Below, piece after piece: positions 24,175 through 38,256 of a DNA stretch of 64,000 nucleotides. The DNA comes from Planctomycetaceae bacterium. GTDB taxonomy: Bacteria > Planctomycetota > Planctomycetia > Planctomycetales > Planctomycetaceae. Location: contig OMIV01000073.1 in assembly GCA_900299185.1 (NCBI GenBank), positions 1-64,000 of the forward strand. The letters are read 5' to 3'. Both the position numbers and the translations under genes were made by a program. How positions within the stretch are numbered: the stretch's first letter is position 1; each line of letters starts with the position of its first letter. The notes under the pieces were generated by a model. The model did not search any database. It saw only the letters and a list, made by a program, of their open reading frames with translations, and was not told the origin of the DNA.

Positions 24175-24673
24175 GCTATAGCTCGCTGTGACCGAGTCCC
24201 TCGCAACGGACTTGGCCGATCCGAGGATTCTCGATGAGGACGCACAGAAACAACGCAACTCCTGAATTGGCCGGGCGTTGTAGCAGCCGTTTGAGAACCG
24301 GCGAAGGCTCGGGACTCCGGCTTTTCCAGAACTGCAACCAGGTTTGATTGATCGGCCTAGCGAAGCTTTGCCGATTCTGACGGTTGATTCGCCGCGCTTC
24401 AGCTCGGTCGCAGGAGTCATTGTCCGTTTCGAGGTTGCCATGCCATCAAGGCATGGGCGCTTGGTACCGGCCCAACAACAAGACTGAGTCGTGAAGCGAC
24501 TCAGCTACGTAGCTCAGTCGCTCTGCGACTGAGAAGCATCAGGAATGATGCTCCTCAAGCTGCGATGTTGTTCTTGGACCGGTCCTTAGCCCGCCGAGAT
24601 TGAGACGACTTGGTCAGGTGACGCTTCCTGCGAACAACTAGCGCGTGCGAGAACAGCCAATGTCTGTCAGAGG
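24175..24673. other. Intergenic region with repeats
   Basis: About 500 bp. It contains a short hairpin GCCATGCC..GGCATGGG (24437-24457) and the CTACGTAG-type repeat listed separately. No supported gene. The promoter of the ExbB-like operon should lie in the right part. Confidence 0.5.
24485..24533. repeat. CTACGTAG-centred palindromic repeat, copy 2
   Basis: Hairpin TGAGTCGTGAAGCGACTCA (24485-24503), then CTACGTAG (24505-24512), then hairpin CTCAGTCGC..GCGACTGAG (24513-24533). The layout matches the copies at 7616, 31984 and 38207. Confidence 0.85.
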
Positions 24674-25951
24674 ATGCTTCGAATGCTCAATGCCAAATCT
24701 CGAATGCTTCGCGGGTTGGACCCAGCCATCGCTCTCGGTCTGATCGCGTCGGCAATCTACTACTCGATCATGTTGCTGACTCCGGCTCTGCGGGGGACGG
24801 TGTTATTTCAATACACCGCTCATGAACCCGTCGAGTTCGTGATCGTCACCTTCTTCCTCTGCGGCGTGGCCGACATCGTGATGAAGGCGTTGTCGTTCCC
24901 GCTCGAGAAGATGGCACTTAAGCGCCCGTTGCTGCCCGCTCGACGCGGTCGTGAGCCAGCAACCAACGCGTCGAAGCTGCTGACCTCGATCCAGCAAGAA
25001 CCGACTTGGCTGCAAGAGTCACGCTTCGGCAAGCGACTCATCGCGGCGTTGTCGTTCATCACTGAAAAGGGGCGAGCCGAAGACTTCCCGGAGCATCTCC
25101 AATACCTCGCCGACCAAGATGAGGATCACTCACATGCCGGCTTTGGTCTGATTCGCTTCGTGATGGGAGCGTCGCCGGTCCTGGGCTTCTTGGGGACCGT
25201 GATCCACTTCGGCTCGGCACTGAGCGGCAACTCCTACGATGACCTCGCCGATCGCTTGCCAACCGTCGTCAGCCAGATGGGTGCAGCTTTTAATACAACA
25301 ACCGTTGCGTTGGCTTCTGCGATGGGCATGATGCTCTCGCTCTTCCTGCTGGAACGCATTGATCGCGGCATCCTTCGCCAAATCAACCGCTACGTTGAAG
25401 TCGAAATCGCCAACCGGTTCGAGATCAAAGACCCGGCACTCACTCCGTTCTTAACCGTACTGCAATCGGCCAACGCCGAAGCCATGCAGTCGATTCAGCA
25501 CGTCTTGTCCGCCCAAGTAACGGCCTGGAGCAAATCGCTCGAACAAGTCTTTGCCCAAATCACGATGCGGCAAGAGCAAGAGTCTCAGCACTGGCAGGCG
25601 GCATTGCTGGCTGTCGAGCAACGCCACGAGACCGCTGATGCCGCGTTGGTTGATCGACTGCGGCAGACCTTGAACGTCGTCGACAACCGACACGAACAAG
25701 AGCTCGGTCGCATTGAGCACGCGCTCGATCAAGCCTTGGGAGTGCGTGACGACATCGGAGTCTTGGTGCGAACGTTGGAAGGCATCGCCAAGGGCGAAGG
25801 CAAACTGGTCGATCAGCAGCGTGTACTGACCGAGAACCTGCGAGTGCTCCGCGAGTCCTCGCAGCTTGATCAAGCACTGCACGGCCTGACGGCGGCCATC
25901 CACTTGATGACCGCGCGGCAAGGCTCCAGCAACATCCGTGAAGCCGCATGA
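24674..25951 (+). CDS. MotA/TolQ/ExbB-type proton channel protein with long coiled-coil tail
   Basis: This 425-aa membrane protein has helices near residues 17-36 (ALGLIASAIYYSIMLL) and 52-72. The diagnostic TolQ/ExbB pair follows: SPVLGFLGTVIHFGSALSG and AAFNTTTVALASAMGMMLSLFLLERI. ExbB-like proteins form the pentameric stator of ion-driven motors. The last 175 residues form a charged, Gln/Glu-rich helical tail that predicts a cytoplasmic coiled coil and is much longer than in ExbB. It is followed by two ExbD-like genes on the same strand, so it probably heads a three-gene operon. Several ATGs lie close together at the start. 24674 is the most upstream. Confidence 0.85.
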   Translation: MLRMLNAKSRMLRGLDPAIALGLIASAIYYSIMLLTPALRGTVLFQYTAHEPVEFVIVTFFLCGVADIVMKALSFPLEKMALKRPLLPARRGREPATNASKLLTSIQQEPTWLQESRFGKRLIAALSFITEKGRAEDFPEHLQYLADQDEDHSHAGFGLIRFVMGASPVLGFLGTVIHFGSALSGNSYDDLADRLPTVVSQMGAAFNTTTVALASAMGMMLSLFLLERIDRGILRQINRYVEVEIANRFEIKDPALTPFLTVLQSANAEAMQSIQHVLSAQVTAWSKSLEQVFAQITMRQEQESQHWQAALLAVEQRHETADAALVDRLRQTLNVVDNRHEQELGRIEHALDQALGVRDDIGVLVRTLEGIAKGEGKLVDQQRVLTENLRVLRESSQLDQALHGLTAAIHLMTARQGSSNIREAA

Positions 25952-26003
25952 TGGCAGTGGACTTTGAGAAATCGGCGTTGGACTCGTTGAGTCACGTTTT
26001 TCT

Positions 26004-26035
26004 TTGGAGTGCTCCGGCTTGACGGAGCACTCCAA
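26004..26035. repeat. Perfect hairpin between the ExbB- and ExbD-like genes
   Basis: A 13-bp perfect stem TTGGAGTGCTCCG/CGGAGCACTCCAA with a 6-base loop lies in the 141-bp gap between the first two genes of the operon. There is no U-tract. It may be a dispersed repeat or may tune the ratio of stator to rotor-like subunits by attenuation or RNA stability. Confidence 0.75.
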
Positions 26036-26092
26036 GGTCTGAGGCAATGCCTCGCAGTTTCTGATCTCGTCATCCACTTTTGATCGTCGATC

Positions 26093-28276
26093 ATGTCGCG
26101 ACCTCGTCATACCAACGGCCCGCCAATCCAGCTCTTCCCGTTTCTGGACGTCTTCATCTGCACGATGGGATGTCTGATCGTGATGCTGATGGTGGTGTCG
26201 CAGAAGGTCCGCGAGAAAACGATTGCCAAGGTCGCAGCCGAACAAACTGCCGTGGGCGAACTGTTGGAAGACGAACAGCCAGCCATCGCTTCGACTCGCG
26301 AACCAGAACCAGTAACGGCTCCGACCGAACCCGAGCCCACGCCACAACGGCGCAGCATCACCGCTGAGGACTTAGCGGCGGCTCAGCAGCGCATCTTGGA
26401 TCTCGAACAACAGGCAGTCGCACTGGATCGCACCTTGCGAGATCGCAAGGCGGCCATCGCGACACTGCATGACGAAACTCAGACGACCACATCCAAGGTC
26501 GCGCTCGCGGCATCGACTCAATCACAACTTAAAGAACGATTGCGAGCTGCCGAGCAGGCTCAGGTCGTCGATCAAGAAGCGTTGCGCAGGTTGCGGACCG
26601 AGCAGCAGCGACTGCGCGACAAGATCTACGAGTCGCGCAAGCTCTTGGCCGAGCACAAGCAGAACGACGGTAATAGTTCTCACATCATCGTGCCGTATGA
26701 CGGAGTCACGGGCACGACGCGTCGACCGATCGTGCTGGAATGCACGGACGACGGCATCAAGTTTGTGTCAGAGAACATCAAGCTCACCGCCAACGACTTG
26801 CAGCACTTTGGCCCTGCAAACAACCCCGTGCTCGCCGGAGCGCGCGAGTTGGTTCGCTATTGGGCCAGCCGCAACGCGGTGCAGGACAACCCCGAGACTC
26901 AACCCAAGCCGTATGTGTTGCTCGTCGTCAGACCTAGCGGCACGTTGGGCTATTACGTCGCGCGAGGCTTCCTCGAAGAACTCGGGACCGAGTTCGGTTA
27001 CGAGCTGGTCTCCGAAGACTTCCGATTTGAAGCACCTGCAACAGAAGCTCGTGCCACAGAACTCTGCCAAGCGGCGATCGACGAAGCACTGCGGCAACGC
27101 GGAGCCAGTGGTCGCCCCACAGAGAGCTTCAGCAAAGCTCTTGATTCAGAGCTCAAAGCGCGAGCACTCAGCGGCACTGCCAACTCCCATGCCGGTGAAA
27201 GTGGCGTGGGACGATCGGGCAGCTCGGGCGGAACATTTACGGGCATCACCGATTCGGGACGTCGCCCGGAGAAGTTCAGCGCGCAAACTCTGAGTCGCGG
27301 CGGCGGAACAGCATCGCAACGGTTCTTCTCCAGCGGCGACTTCATGCAGCATCGAGAAGAAGTCGAGTCCGGTGGCAGCGCACCAAGAGGCTCGGCCTCG
27401 GGAGCCATTGCTAGCGGTTCGTCGGGGGGTGCTTACGAGAACTCAGCGAGCGGTTCGCGAGCAGGCAACGGCTTACGTGGCGGAACTTCTGGCGGAGTCG
27501 CCAGCAACAGCTCCAACAGCCTTAGTAACAATCGTGACACTCAGGTTTATGGTCGACCGTCCAAGAACGGTTCGAGTTCTCAATTCGAATTCTCAGACGA
27601 TCAAGCTCCACTCGTTGAACCGCCTGCGGGTGGGTCAGCAGGTTCGGGCTCCAAGGCATCGACAGCAGCGTCACGGTCGGTCGCGCAAGCCGACAGAAAC
27701 TCGGGCGTTGAGTCGCTCGAACCACACACTCCGAACAACGCCGCGACCTCCGGTAAGTCGTCCAAGTTTCCAACACTGGATGGCGACGGCGCGGGCAACG
27801 GAACCGCAAACAGCGGTGCTGAATCCCAAAGTGGAGGATCGAGTTCGCGCGGCAGCGCTTCGCTTGGCAGCAATAAGTCTGGCCCGTCTATCGAGATGTC
27901 TTCGCCCGGCGAGAACTTGTTGTCGAAGCGCGACCTCAAGGAATTGAAGGACTTCAAACGGCAATGGGGCATCCCGAATCCGAAGGGCACCATCGCGCTA
28001 GAGAAGGAGATGGTGATCGTGATCAACGGAGATCGAGTCATCGTCCATAACCGCTATCGCATCAGCCGAACTGAAGATCGAACCAACGCCGAAGTGGCCG
28101 AGCTGACGATCGAAGCGATGGACGTAATCGCTCGAGATTGGGGCCGTCCGCCCGAGCAATTCTATTGGCTGCCGAATGTGGAGCTTGTCGTGCAGCGTGG
28201 TGGTGAGATCTGGAAAGAGTCCTTCAAACGAGCACTCGAGCAATCGGGCGTGACAGTCAAGGTGAGCTATGAGTAA
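26093..28276 (+). CDS. Large ExbD-like protein with Ser/Gly-rich region
   Basis: This 727-aa protein starts with a short cytoplasmic stretch and one membrane helix, FPFLDVFICTMGCLIVMLMVV. It contains the ExbD-type Asp (PFLD, compare PFID in ExbD). A coiled coil (about 95-190) comes next, then a folded domain (HIIVPYDG...YVLLVVRPSGTLGYYVARGFLEELG). About 270 residues of Ser/Gly/Asn-rich low-complexity sequence follow, then a C-terminal domain (LKELKDFKRQWGIPNPKG...VIVHNRYRI). It is far longer than ExbD (about 140 aa). It overlaps the next gene by 8 bp, which indicates translational coupling. The Asp implies a proton-coupled role with the ExbB-like protein. The periplasmic target is unknown. 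Confidence 0.8.
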   Translation: MSRPRHTNGPPIQLFPFLDVFICTMGCLIVMLMVVSQKVREKTIAKVAAEQTAVGELLEDEQPAIASTREPEPVTAPTEPEPTPQRRSITAEDLAAAQQRILDLEQQAVALDRTLRDRKAAIATLHDETQTTTSKVALAASTQSQLKERLRAAEQAQVVDQEALRRLRTEQQRLRDKIYESRKLLAEHKQNDGNSSHIIVPYDGVTGTTRRPIVLECTDDGIKFVSENIKLTANDLQHFGPANNPVLAGARELVRYWASRNAVQDNPETQPKPYVLLVVRPSGTLGYYVARGFLEELGTEFGYELVSEDFRFEAPATEARATELCQAAIDEALRQRGASGRPTESFSKALDSELKARALSGTANSHAGESGVGRSGSSGGTFTGITDSGRRPEKFSAQTLSRGGGTASQRFFSSGDFMQHREEVESGGSAPRGSASGAIASGSSGGAYENSASGSRAGNGLRGGTSGGVASNSSNSLSNNRDTQVYGRPSKNGSSSQFEFSDDQAPLVEPPAGGSAGSGSKASTAASRSVAQADRNSGVESLEPHTPNNAATSGKSSKFPTLDGDGAGNGTANSGAESQSGGSSSRGSASLGSNKSGPSIEMSSPGENLLSKRDLKELKDFKRQWGIPNPKGTIALEKEMVIVINGDRVIVHNRYRISRTEDRTNAEVAELTIEAMDVIARDWGRPPEQFYWLPNVELVVQRGGEIWKESFKRALEQSGVTVKVSYE

Positions 28277-29417
28277 GCGTCAACGCCGCAGCGACGACGC
28301 GGAAGCCGAGTTCGGTTCCGACTCATTCCTCGACGTCATCTCCAACATGGTCGGGATCTTGATCATCCTGATTCTGATGGCCGCGTTCCGCGCCAAGCGA
28401 GCACCGGTCACGGCTCAAGAGTTGATCGCCGTTAACGGACCAGTCGCATCGACTGAGGTCGCTTCAGTAACTCCGCCGGAGCCCGAAGCCTCAGACGAAG
28501 AGACTGAGCCAGCCGCTTCACCTGAGCCAACGGCCTTGGTCGTTGAGTCCGATTTAGAAGCCGAACAAGAGAAGCTGCTGGCGCGAGCGACTCAATACGA
28601 ACGCTTGGTGCGACGGCTCGAAGATGAATTGAACCAGACGGACGATCGCGACGTCGCGGCCAAGCTGGCACGAGCGCGCACTCAGCAACAGTCGTCCGAG
28701 GCGGCGTTGAAAGAACTCCGCGCATCACTTGAGCAACGCAAGCAAGAGCAGTCGCGCGTCCGCGCGTCGCTGGATGATGAGCAGCAAGAAATCGAAACGC
28801 TGCGGCGGCAACTCGATCAGGTCAACGAGCAGTTGAAGGTCGTGGCTCTGCGCGAGAGCAAGAAAGAGAAGCTGCGGCACAAGGTCACGCCGCTGGGGCT
28901 GACGGTCTATGGCAAGGAGTTGCACTTCCGCTTGAACCGCGGTCGCATCTCGGCAGTGCCGATGGAAGAACTGCAAAAGATGGTGGCCGAGAAGATCAAG
29001 CAGAACGCCGCGTGGATCGTGAAGTCCAATCGGCACCAAGGCGAAGTCGGTCCGGTCGATGGCTATGTCATGAAGTACGAAGTCATTCGTGCTCAGAGCT
29101 CGATGCTGGAAGACCTCAATCGCACTTACGGCACTGTGAAGCTGGAAGTCCCGCGTTTCACAGTTGAGCCCGCTCCGTCGCTGCGCGACGAGCCGGTCAC
29201 CGAGTCCTTGCAGCCAGATGGCCTCTTTGTGCGTTGGCTGGCTCAGAACGCACCGGATACTGCCATCACCATCTGGGTCTATCCCGATAGCTTCAACGAG
29301 TACCGGCGGCTTGCGTCATATGCGCAGCAACAAGGCTTCGTCGTCGCCGCGCGACCGTTGCCGACAGGTCTGCCCATTACCGGTTCATCCAGCGGCAGCC
29401 GCTCTGTCGGTCAGTAA
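28269..29417 (+). CDS. Second ExbD-like protein with coiled coil
   Basis: This 382-aa protein has one membrane helix, SFLDVISNMVGILIILILMAAF, again with the ExbD-type Asp (FLD). It is followed by a Pro/Glu-rich linker, a strong coiled coil (about 85-200, EQEKLLARATQYERLVRRLEDEL) and a C-terminal domain (VTPLGLTVYGKELHFRLNRGRISAVP...). Its ATG lies inside the end of the previous gene (ATGAGTAA). With the 727-aa protein it gives two different ExbD-like partners for one ExbB-like stator, so a heterodimeric rotor is possible. The ligand of the C-terminal domain is unknown. Confidence 0.8.
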   Translation: MSKRQRRSDDAEAEFGSDSFLDVISNMVGILIILILMAAFRAKRAPVTAQELIAVNGPVASTEVASVTPPEPEASDEETEPAASPEPTALVVESDLEAEQEKLLARATQYERLVRRLEDELNQTDDRDVAAKLARARTQQQSSEAALKELRASLEQRKQEQSRVRASLDDEQQEIETLRRQLDQVNEQLKVVALRESKKEKLRHKVTPLGLTVYGKELHFRLNRGRISAVPMEELQKMVAEKIKQNAAWIVKSNRHQGEVGPVDGYVMKYEVIRAQSSMLEDLNRTYGTVKLEVPRFTVEPAPSLRDEPVTESLQPDGLFVRWLAQNAPDTAITIWVYPDSFNEYRRLASYAQQQGFVVAARPLPTGLPITGSSSGSRSVGQ

Positions 29418-29436: not shown

Positions 29437-29511
29437 TCTCACGCAGAGACGCAGGGTGCGCGGAGATAACTGCTTCTTCCAGCTCTGCGAACCCCGCGCC
29501 TCTGCGTGAGA
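29437..29511. repeat. GAAACACAGAGG-type palindromic repeat, diverged copy
   Basis: Arms TCTCACGCAGAG and CTCTGCGTGAGA pair over 12 bp and enclose GACGCAGGG..CCCCGCGCC. The element lies between convergent genes, where it may also end transcription. It is related to the copies at 35303, 39946, 42406, 42887 and 43117. Confidence 0.65.
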
Positions 29512-29564: not shown

Positions 29565-31763
29565 CTATACAGCGTCGTCTTCGACAAAGGCATGCCCGCC
29601 TTGCACCAGCTTGCGAGTCATCACGACCTCGCCCACCAAGATCGCCAGGAAGACCAACATCAACACGCGCCACAGTTCGACGCGGGCATTGTCTGACTTC
29701 AATGACGACAGCAACTCGCGCGGTTCGTTGATGGCCCGCAGATGATTCTCGGACGTGAGGTCGCGCCAGCGTTCCTCTGAGATCCCGGCGAGTTCCGATT
29801 CCTTGCGATCGAAGTTCACAACAAACAGCTCGTCTTTGCTCGCGTCCTGCTGCGGACGATTGCGTCGATGCAGTCGATAGACGCCGGGAAATGTTGTCTC
29901 GTCGAGCTTCGCCAAGGGACGCAGTTCATCGCCACCCGCCGTCGCTGCGATCTCTTTGTTGTTGGGCGTGACAAAGACGTAGTCGGCAACCGCCTCTTTC
30001 GCCGCCAGCGGCACAACCAACGGCACTCCGCTGTCGACATTGCGAGCGATCCGCCCCGATGTGAGGTTGAAGATCAGCTCATGCAAAAAGGCCACATAGT
30101 CGGGCTTCGCCGGCAACGTGGTCCAATCGGCATCGAGCGATGAAGTCATCAAAGCGACTTGCCCGCGTCCCAACGATCGAGACATCAGCCATGCATCGCC
30201 ACTCGTCAGCTTCGCAGCCGCGATGCAATTCTCATCCGCCGGTTCGACCTTCATCCAATTCGAAAACCGAGCATCCAAGAGACCATCGGAAGCGCCATCT
30301 TTGAAGGGCTTCAACCATTGAAGCTGCAGGCTCTCGTTGAGCACCGTGACCGGCGGTTCGTCCTTGTCGCGCGAAGCCGTTTCAATCTTCAACAACTTCG
30401 CGGGCAACAAACCAGCCTTCTGCAACAGCGTCGCGTTGTACCAGTCACGATCAACCAGATCTCCGACCGTAATCGCCAGACCGCCACCGCTTCCGACGTA
30501 CTCGGTCAGTGCCGAAACTTGTGCGTCATCCAATCGGGAAGCATTGGCCAGCACCACCACTTGCGGCGTCACGAGCCGTTCGGCAGTGAGTTGACTGACG
30601 GGAACAACTTGCGCTCCGACCCACGGCGTCGGATTCGAGGCAGCCGACAGCGCGAGCTTCGCAAAGAACGTCTCGCTGCGAGTGGCATCAGCTTGAGGTT
30701 GCCCATCAACCATCAACACCGGCAGCGCGTCGGTGATTGAAACCGTCGCTTCAGAACGGTCGTCGTTGGGCAAGTTGTCTTCTTCAGTGACGACTGCAAT
30801 CAGATGCGAGCCAATAGTCTTGAAGCGATGTTCGAAGTCGAGCGACGCTTGGCCGTCGGGCTCAATGCGAACCGTTTGCGTTTGATCGGCGAGTCGTTGG
30901 CCGTCGACTTCGAGGAACACTTTGCGAGTCGCCGTACCATTGCCGCCTGAGCACTTGAGCCTCGTCTTGATCCGCACCGGGAAGTCCATGACGGTCAACT
31001 CGCGCGAGAGTTGCAGTCGATCAAGACTGAAGTTCGTGCGTTTGCCTTGCTGAGCTTGCGTGTTGACGACCCACACGTCGGCAGGCACCGAGGCTTGCTG
31101 CCGAAGCTCATCAAACTGTAACCAAAAGTGCTCGTCAGCATTCTGCCAGGACACCGCTTGCCCGTCCGAGATCACGATGACATGCCGACTGAGGCTCGTC
31201 GCAGTTTGCATCATCTGCAACGACTTCACGACTGACTCATTCATGCGAGAAGTCCCCGACGGCGGCGGAAGGTCATCGAGCAGCTTCTTCAGCGTTACTC
31301 GATCTCGACTGAAGGTCGGCATTACGGGATTGAGCACGTCGCGAGCATCAAGCAATGCGACAGTGTCCGCCGAGGAAAGTTGGCCAATTAAATCCTGAGC
31401 CCACTTCACAGCCCGCTGATGTGGAGTCCGCGCCGCACCGCGCCAATTCGCGCTGTAAGAACTATCGATGACGATGACGTAGTCGCTAGCCGGAGCCGAC
31501 GCGAACCAGGCAGCGATTGGACCCGACAGCCAAGGTCGGCTCATGCCGATGGCCAAGAGGGCGATCAATCCAATCCGCAGCGCAAGCAGTAAGAACTCTT
31601 CCAAACGCACTCGGCGTTTAGCCTGCCGACCGAGTTCCAGGAACTGCATCGCTCCCCACTCGACGACGTCGTACTTCTTACGACTCAACAGATGCGCGAT
31701 GACCGGCAGGGCGACTCCCAAAAGTCCCAGCAGCATCAGCGGGTTGATGAAGAAATTTGACAT
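29565..31763 (-). CDS. BatA-type membrane protein with von Willebrand A-like domain
   Basis: The ATG at 31763 gives 732 aa, starting MSNFFINPLMLLGLLGVALPVIAHLLSRKKYDVVEWGAMQFL. This is the N-terminal BatA membrane domain, with two helices. A vWA domain follows, with the MIDAS-like DSSYSAN and VIVISDGQ. A beta-rich extracytoplasmic part and glutamine-amidotransferase-like segments (VLANASRLDDAQVSALTEYVGSGGGLAITVG) come next, then a last membrane helix near the C-terminus (WRVLMLVFLAILVGEVVMTRKL). BatA/vWA proteins often work with MoxR ATPases, but none is present here. An in-frame TTG at 31790 gives nine extra residues. The gene is convergent with the ExbD-like operon. Confidence 0.85.
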   Translation of the reverse strand: MSNFFINPLMLLGLLGVALPVIAHLLSRKKYDVVEWGAMQFLELGRQAKRRVRLEEFLLLALRIGLIALLAIGMSRPWLSGPIAAWFASAPASDYVIVIDSSYSANWRGAARTPHQRAVKWAQDLIGQLSSADTVALLDARDVLNPVMPTFSRDRVTLKKLLDDLPPPSGTSRMNESVVKSLQMMQTATSLSRHVIVISDGQAVSWQNADEHFWLQFDELRQQASVPADVWVVNTQAQQGKRTNFSLDRLQLSRELTVMDFPVRIKTRLKCSGGNGTATRKVFLEVDGQRLADQTQTVRIEPDGQASLDFEHRFKTIGSHLIAVVTEEDNLPNDDRSEATVSITDALPVLMVDGQPQADATRSETFFAKLALSAASNPTPWVGAQVVPVSQLTAERLVTPQVVVLANASRLDDAQVSALTEYVGSGGGLAITVGDLVDRDWYNATLLQKAGLLPAKLLKIETASRDKDEPPVTVLNESLQLQWLKPFKDGASDGLLDARFSNWMKVEPADENCIAAAKLTSGDAWLMSRSLGRGQVALMTSSLDADWTTLPAKPDYVAFLHELIFNLTSGRIARNVDSGVPLVVPLAAKEAVADYVFVTPNNKEIAATAGGDELRPLAKLDETTFPGVYRLHRRNRPQQDASKDELFVVNFDRKESELAGISEERWRDLTSENHLRAINEPRELLSSLKSDNARVELWRVLMLVFLAILVGEVVMTRKLVQGGHAFVEDDAV

Positions 31764-31827
31764 AGCAGCCAGCGCGAAAGTGATCCTCAAGAGTCACGGG
31801 CTGCGAGTTGTAGTCACTCAAATGAAG

Positions 31828-38206: not shown

Positions 38207-38256
38207 GCGAGTCGCGGAGCGACTCGCCTACGTAGCTCAGTCGCTCCGCGACTGAG
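38207..38256. repeat. CTACGTAG-centred palindromic repeat, copy 4 (inverted)
   Basis: Hairpin GCGAGTCGCGGAGCGACTCGC (38207-38227), CTACGTAG (38228-38235), hairpin CTCAGTCGCTCCGCGACTGAG (38236-38256). The two hairpins are in the opposite order to copies 1 and 3. Confidence 0.85.

Follow-up and report, generated by a model that had tools for sequence, protein, structure and literature searches.

A conserved planctomycete operon encoding a candidate ExbBD/TolQR-type motor with two different axle proteins

Introduction

Membrane motors in which one ring gene is accompanied by two axle genes are already known, a described case being AglRQS (PMC3169522, PMC9389320, PMC9120999, and PMC3858216); another source (PMC12505986) notes generic ion transporters with large periplasmic parts. 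In Myxococcus, aglR-aglQ-aglS is a single cluster of one gene for a MotA/TolQ-type ring protein and two for TolR-type proteins, and the motor functions without TonB. Both properties are shared by a planctomycete locus, A-B-C, that we analyzed in a stretch of 64,000 nucleotides (hereafter the window, always meaning that whole stretch). The difference lies in the axle: AglQ and AglS are small PF02472 proteins, both reported to carry the membrane Asp, whereas B and C are large, stalked, and outside PF02472, and B usually lacks the Asp.

Two axle genes downstream of a ring gene are found also in ExbB-ExbD1-ExbD2 clusters and in five ExbB-ExbD-ExbD triples of the window genome itself (C377, C42, C38, C334, and C361), but the ExbDs of these triples are small PF02472 proteins that retain the transmembrane (TM) acid in both copies. 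Likewise, the PVC tolQ sets of planctomycetes combine one ring gene with two different tolR-like genes; those sets carry TPR and vWA genes, whereas neither recurs near A-B-C, where a transducer-like part lies within B. Like A, the Zorya ring protein ZorA carries a long C-terminal tail, but its partner ZorB has an OmpA-type peptidoglycan-binding domain, as does the axle protein of the MotAB flagellar stator, and Pfam searches detected no such domain (PF00691) in B or C. Elsewhere in the window genome, on C71 and C339, a MotA-like gene is paired with an OmpA gene. TonB-ExbBD and TolA-TolQR share with A-B-C a ring and an Asp-bearing axle and, going by borderline structural scores, perhaps an ExbD/TolR-like periplasmic fold, but the A-B-C locus contains neither TonB nor TolA.

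Judging from the sequences, what appears new relative to the known kinds is the combination of stalked, multidomain B and C outside PF02472, a single conserved Asp, and apparent ring replacement. A first-pass annotation of this DNA had suggested a possible new ion-driven motor. This is supported in so far as the locus is a separate operon of one ring and two axle genes of the MotA/TolQ/ExbB type without TonB, TolA, or OmpA, but the kind of motor is known and no new principle is involved. Literature searches for the A-B-C family found no published account of this planctomycete operon.

Results and Discussion

A conserved three-gene operon

The three same-strand open reading frames reported in the first-pass annotation are present (Table 1), with B and C overlapping by 8 bp (28269-28276). 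When A was used as the query in 40 genomes, the window's own included, matches were obtained in 39, and B and C were found downstream of A in loci from 12 public contigs and in larger regions. The A-B-C order on one strand is preserved in 47 of the 47 type-1 loci that contain all three genes. Given that the same gene order was recovered from many planctomycete genomes, the arrangement is not due to chance.

Table 1. Coordinates of the A-B-C genes and of features within their products
Feature	Coordinates in window	Strand	Description and basis
Gene A	24674..25951	+	425 aa; MotA/TolQ/ExbB ring subunit; PF01618 match, planctomycete relatives, hydropathy
A, channel motif GFLGTV, residues 171-176	25184..25201	+	G171-V176 invariant in 25-row alignment
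A, channel motif AFNTT, residues 205-209	25286..25300	+	AFDTT in most relatives
A, C-terminal tail, residues 236-425	25379..25948	+	Presumably cytoplasmic; alignment consensus, composition, weak ZorA-tail HMM match
Gene B	26093..28276	+	727 aa; ExbD/TolR-like axle subunit 1; one TM, homologous to C, conserved operon
B, Asp19 (FPFLD)	26147..26149	+	Ala/Thr in 44/46 fully readable type-1 loci
B, stalk helix, residues 84-191	26342..26665	+	AF2, pLDDT about 79-94 per block
B, domain D1, residues about 205-310	26705..27022	+	TolR-like; AF2, match to TolR 5by4
B, Ser/Gly-rich linker, residues 340-623	27110..27961	+	21% Ser, 17% Gly; pLDDT <50 nearly throughout
B, domain D2, residues 634-727	27992..28273	+	ExbD-like; second copy of D1, match to ExbD 8p9r_A
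Gene C	28269..29417	+	382 aa; ExbD/TolR-like axle subunit 2; relatives, AF2 model
C, Asp22 (SFLD)	28332..28334	+	Conserved TM Asp; Asp in 51/51 readable type-1 loci
C, stalk helix, residues about 93-194	28545..28850	+	AF2
C, globular domain, residues 213-378	28905..29402	+	AF2, pLDDT mostly 88-96; alignments

A profile of C was compared with 392 genomes of the phylum, with up to five candidates scored per genome, so that absences are soft; 38 genomes matched at E <1e-50, comprising 26 of the 28 from the window's family and 12 from elsewhere in its class. Full scoring of 10 genomes from the class gave a strong C match in 6, and all four without one belong to family f3 (f1, f2, f3, f4, and so on are working labels for genome families). 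In the window's own family, such a match was present in 8 of 10 genomes scored in full; in this set, the C match of G018 is cut by the contig end, and no strong C match was found in G143 (G143 and G025 also belong to the sample of 392). A-B-C is a conserved planctomycete operon, kept by most sampled members of one class.

The best match to the C profile beyond the window's class (1.3e-26) comes from a second, paralogous operon, A'-B'-C' (L138-L147). It encodes a short B' (271-325 aa) with Ser in place of the Asp, and it occurs also outside the window's class (f63 and f70).

Clustering of neighboring genes revealed no plausible partner gene recurring beside A-B-C, the clusters being present in at most eight loci and at varying distances, and TonB, TolA, and Pal did not recur among the neighbors at the locus. 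The single TonB_C gene of the window genome is located on contig C123 and its three OmpA genes on C239, C71, and C339, consistent with the earlier remark that no TonB, TolA, or OmpA-type gene adjoins the operon. Plain ExbB/ExbD homologs accompanied by TonB were not encountered in the loci examined, and an ordinary ExbBD system working with TonB is ruled out by the lack of TonB at the locus.

The ring protein

The product of gene A matches the Pfam family MotA_ExbB (PF01618; E = 1.4e-7, 31.7 bits against a cut-off of 22.9) and contains four hydrophobic segments by hydropathy (residues 15-39, 51-78, 155-177, and 208-227), confirming the proposed ExbB-like identity and the presence of both channel helices. 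The number of segments is not firm because the same crude method yields between 2 and 6 across 58 A proteins, with four in 25 of these. The residues GT (174-175) and TT (208-209), which we take to be the channel-lining Thr of the last two TM helices, are invariant in the 25-row alignment and altered in three copies. The C-terminal tail consists of 190 residues, is Pro-poor, and has a conserved end with the consensus ..NL..L....FEETL.SL.AA.HLLTAR.. in the same alignment. Two ZorA models gave weak matches to A, namely, PADLOC ZorA2 (E = 5.4e-6) and NCBIfam ZorA (17.5 bits, below the cut-off of 250).

Domain architecture of B and C

B and C each contain one hydrophobic segment by hydropathy, and residues 1-228 of B are homologous to C (hhalign 98.5%, E = 2.2e-15). 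Neither protein matched the ExbD family PF02472 in Pfam searches at E up to 1, and comparing their profiles with those of the ExbDs encoded in the same genome likewise gave no match. In the AlphaFold models of C and B, built from alignments of 12 and 9 rows, B consists of the TM helix, a long helix (84-191), the D1 domain, a disordered region (340-623), and the D2 domain. D1 and D2 align with each other (hhalign 96.2%, E = 2.1e-9), with the same order of elements, so that B contains two copies of one domain.

Structural comparison with VIA-align matched D2 to ExbD 8p9r_A at a borderline score (Z = 7.6, rmsd 2.5, 71 of 74 residues aligned) and D1 to TolR 5by4, also at a borderline score (Z = 7.0, rmsd 5.5, 87 residues aligned). 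Ribosomal S11-type chains tie with ExbD/TolR for B (Z up to 7.5), and both Z values fall in a range that VIA-align itself labels as common. Because of these ties and the borderline scores, the ExbD-like fold of B, as modeled, is considered likely rather than proven. The large helical and globular extracytoplasmic parts noted at first pass are present in the models, but their description as unlike ExbD or TolR is probably wrong for B, where the best matches to the two domains are ExbD and TolR.

The globular domain of C has the topology bba-(3-strand insert)-bab, with a conserved WVYPDSF motif (336-342) and a conserved C-terminal end. Neither ExbD nor TolR is among the Foldseek and VIA-align matches listed for C, many of which are filled by the stalk, so that C could still adopt this fold.

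The membrane Asp

In the hhalign alignment of B with C, the Asp of C falls on the Ala/Asp column of B. Residues at the ring, B, and C sites were tabulated for 55 type-1 loci, 46 of them readable at all three sites, and for 10 type-2 loci, 9 of them readable. A separate reading of residues at these sites, drawn on for the f2 and FNTT loci below, omitted L108, L109, and L133 as duplicates. The type-1 combinations are D/A/D in 41 loci, D/T/D in 3, and N/D/D in 2, the last being the window and its genus mate L045; the type-2 combinations are D/S/D in 7 loci and N/S/D in 2. The Asp of C is present throughout the readable type-1 loci (Table 1) and in 10 of 10 type-2 loci. The first-pass annotation stated that both partners keep the membrane Asp, which is true of the window genome (B D19 and C D22) but not of the family, where B typically has Ala or Thr. 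One Asp is the normal state of the family, and the two-Asp axle is a lineage-specific state.

In five f2 (Isosphaeraceae-like) loci, one of them belonging to Paludisphaera soli, no A adjoins the remaining B and/or C, and in all five C lacks the Asp; four f2 genomes encode a distant A-like gene elsewhere. In one of these four, the A-like gene (GFIGTVE, AFDST; L175:4359-6531) precedes a gene for a 256-aa protein whose TM resembles that of C but has Ala at the position of the Asp (SFVAVV).

The FNTT ring type and acidic B

Phylogenetic trees were quick ones, constructed without bootstrap. In the tree of A, the window clusters with L045, L046, and L047 (100) next to family f4 (98), and the window's family is placed elsewhere, in a group of 27 A proteins. 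The C of the window, unlike its A, is nested inside its own family in a tree restricted to rows longer than 300 aa and lacking L110, L111, L116, L118, L119, and L122.

A class-wide search of 397 genomes identified the window's FNTT ring type in 29 of these, with up to four candidates scored per genome, which makes absences soft; the motif itself reads FNT in 26 of them, and G621, G556, and G550 were assigned by similarity only. B carries an acid in 16 of the 29 FNTT genomes (15 Asp and 1 Glu, the latter in G626) and Ala or Ser in the other 13; in the 48 B loci without an FNTT ring, among which L037, L038, and L042 come from genomes outside the ring search and G307 is absent from its listed rows, no acidic B was seen. 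On a tree of these 77 B loci, parsimony requires 6 changes for the acid, only 2 of them forced by well-supported branches. The operon A has changed channel residues in 3 of the 29 FNTT genomes (L210 of G009, L137 of G036, and L270 of G722), and an intact old operon A is kept in another 3 (G542, G565, and G692); no intact one was seen in the 16 genomes with an acidic B. G007 combines an odd ring, AFGTT, with Ala in B.

A strict exchange of Asp, in which the ring changes from D to N as B changes from A to D, is rejected as a rule because the type-2 loci L141 and L145 combine FNTT with Ser in B' and because B lacks an acid in 13 of the 29 FNTT genomes; the coupling between the ring type and the acid in B is thus not strict. 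A one-way statement survives: an acid in B is seen only alongside the FNTT ring. The sequences suggest that the original ring was displaced by a foreign or paralogous one and that B later regained the acid in several lineages, although their number is unsure.

A peculiar case among the 16 genomes with an acidic B is G643, which encodes a B-type protein whose TM segment is of the C type (L262, FGSDSFLDVLANMVGI), as if by gene conversion between the neighboring B and C.

Matched stalks and the proposed motor

We defined stalk length as the distance from the TM motif to the first domain. The stalk lengths of B and C are correlated over 62 loci (Pearson 0.90; L108-L111, L116, L118, L119, L181, and L237 left out) and over the 58 that remain after L218, L220, L221, and L233 are dropped as duplicates (r = 0.89). 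In the latter set, 42 loci agree within 10 residues, and the median B-C difference is 5.5 residues compared to about 26 after shuffling. For 29 disjoint pairs of nearest relatives, the stalk differences of B and C are also correlated (r = 0.88, not reached in any of 20,000 permutations; 0.64 without the three largest pairs). The clear exceptions, L048, L049, and L137, all belong to f4 and have B and C stalks that differ by about 40 residues. Covariation of the two stalks is what a side-by-side heterodimer would give.

We consider it probable, with some reservation, that A, B, and C form an inner-membrane ion-driven motor of the ExbBD/TolQR/AglRQS kind, with a heterodimeric axle that usually bears one Asp. 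In this motor, five A subunits would form a ring around an axle that, as the matched stalks suggest, pairs the TM helix of one B with that of one C. By homology, ions would cross at the conserved C Asp, which would face the ring Thr, turning the axle against the ring. As B lacks the Asp in most relatives, the axle would usually be asymmetric, with a single Asp; the window's lineage has another ring type (FNTT) and an Asp on B too. The stalk of about 100 residues (about 15 nm if it is a single helix) would raise the ExbD-like domains into the periplasm, where the flexible linker of B, of about 280 residues, together with the second ExbD-like domain could serve as a built-in force transducer replacing TonB or TolA and acting on peptidoglycan or on an outer-membrane partner.

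Alternatively, one ring might serve two separate homodimeric motors, with A5C2 as the working form and B2, usually lacking the Asp, as an inactive or regulatory axle. The usual lack of the Asp in B would fit this arrangement, and the homo- or heterodimeric state of AglQ and AglS is itself not settled according to PMC9389320, but we regard it as unlikely given that B and C stalk lengths are matched across species and that B and C are strictly paired in the operon, even in the f2 loci without A. Slightly less likely still, the complex could be a sensor rather than an engine, the B/C stalk passing envelope stress or the state of peptidoglycan to the tail of A, as proposed for ZorAB. The long tail of A and its weak ZorA matches are compatible with sensing, as is the requirement of the ZorA tail for defense described in PMC11890865; against it, most of the class has one operon per genome and the C proteins of f1 are together on the tree, which suggests core inheritance rather than a defense island, and B and C have no OmpA-type domain and no recurring effector neighbor. 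A third alternative, a gliding or surface-appendage motor of the AglRQS type that pulls outer-membrane machinery encoded elsewhere, seems improbable. It would have the same composition, with one MotA-like protein and two of the TolR type (PMC3169522), and the AglQ D28N channel mutant served to show the role of the channel there (PMC3858216), but AglQ and AglS, at 162 and 194 aa, are ordinary, small members of PF02472 (PMC3169522), and both are reported with Asp, unlike B. No Glt-like genes were noticed in passing among the neighbors. Zorya defense is rejected in view of the missed ZorA cut-off, the weakness of the matches, the single conserved operon, and the lack of an effector neighbor.

Implications of a one-Asp axle

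Under the heterodimeric motor reading, planctomycetes may possess a powered envelope machine that has yet to be studied, the force transducer apparently being built into an axle protein. In the published 5:2 rotary model, two equivalent axle subunits take turns at the ring, and 36-degree steps are expected for such a two-subunit axle (PMC9389320); by the same logic, one Asp would give 72-degree steps. A more specific scheme, which we put forward tentatively and hold to be somewhat less likely than its negation, is that of an obligate heterodimer with a single Asp, stepping by 72 degrees, in which foreign rings were repeatedly swapped in, the old ring lost its channel residues, and the silent partner regained an acid. 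This would entail one power stroke per ring subunit, that is, five 72-degree steps per turn, and regain of Asp, once of Glu, and once by adoption of the TM of the sister subunit. If so, natural variants could serve to test what the second Asp does in 5:2 motors. Because close relatives of this widespread one-Asp axle bear two, both the step size and the requirement for a second Asp become open to direct testing.

Flanking DNA

The DNA upstream of gene A contains two strong hairpins (24487-24556, fold z -4.7), and a partial copy of this region is found at 38221-38243. On the other side, an inverted pair of ACGCAGAG-type repeats (29441-29507) is located between gene C and a convergent gene (29565-31790) that encodes a membrane protein with a vWA-like stretch, presumably BatA-like.
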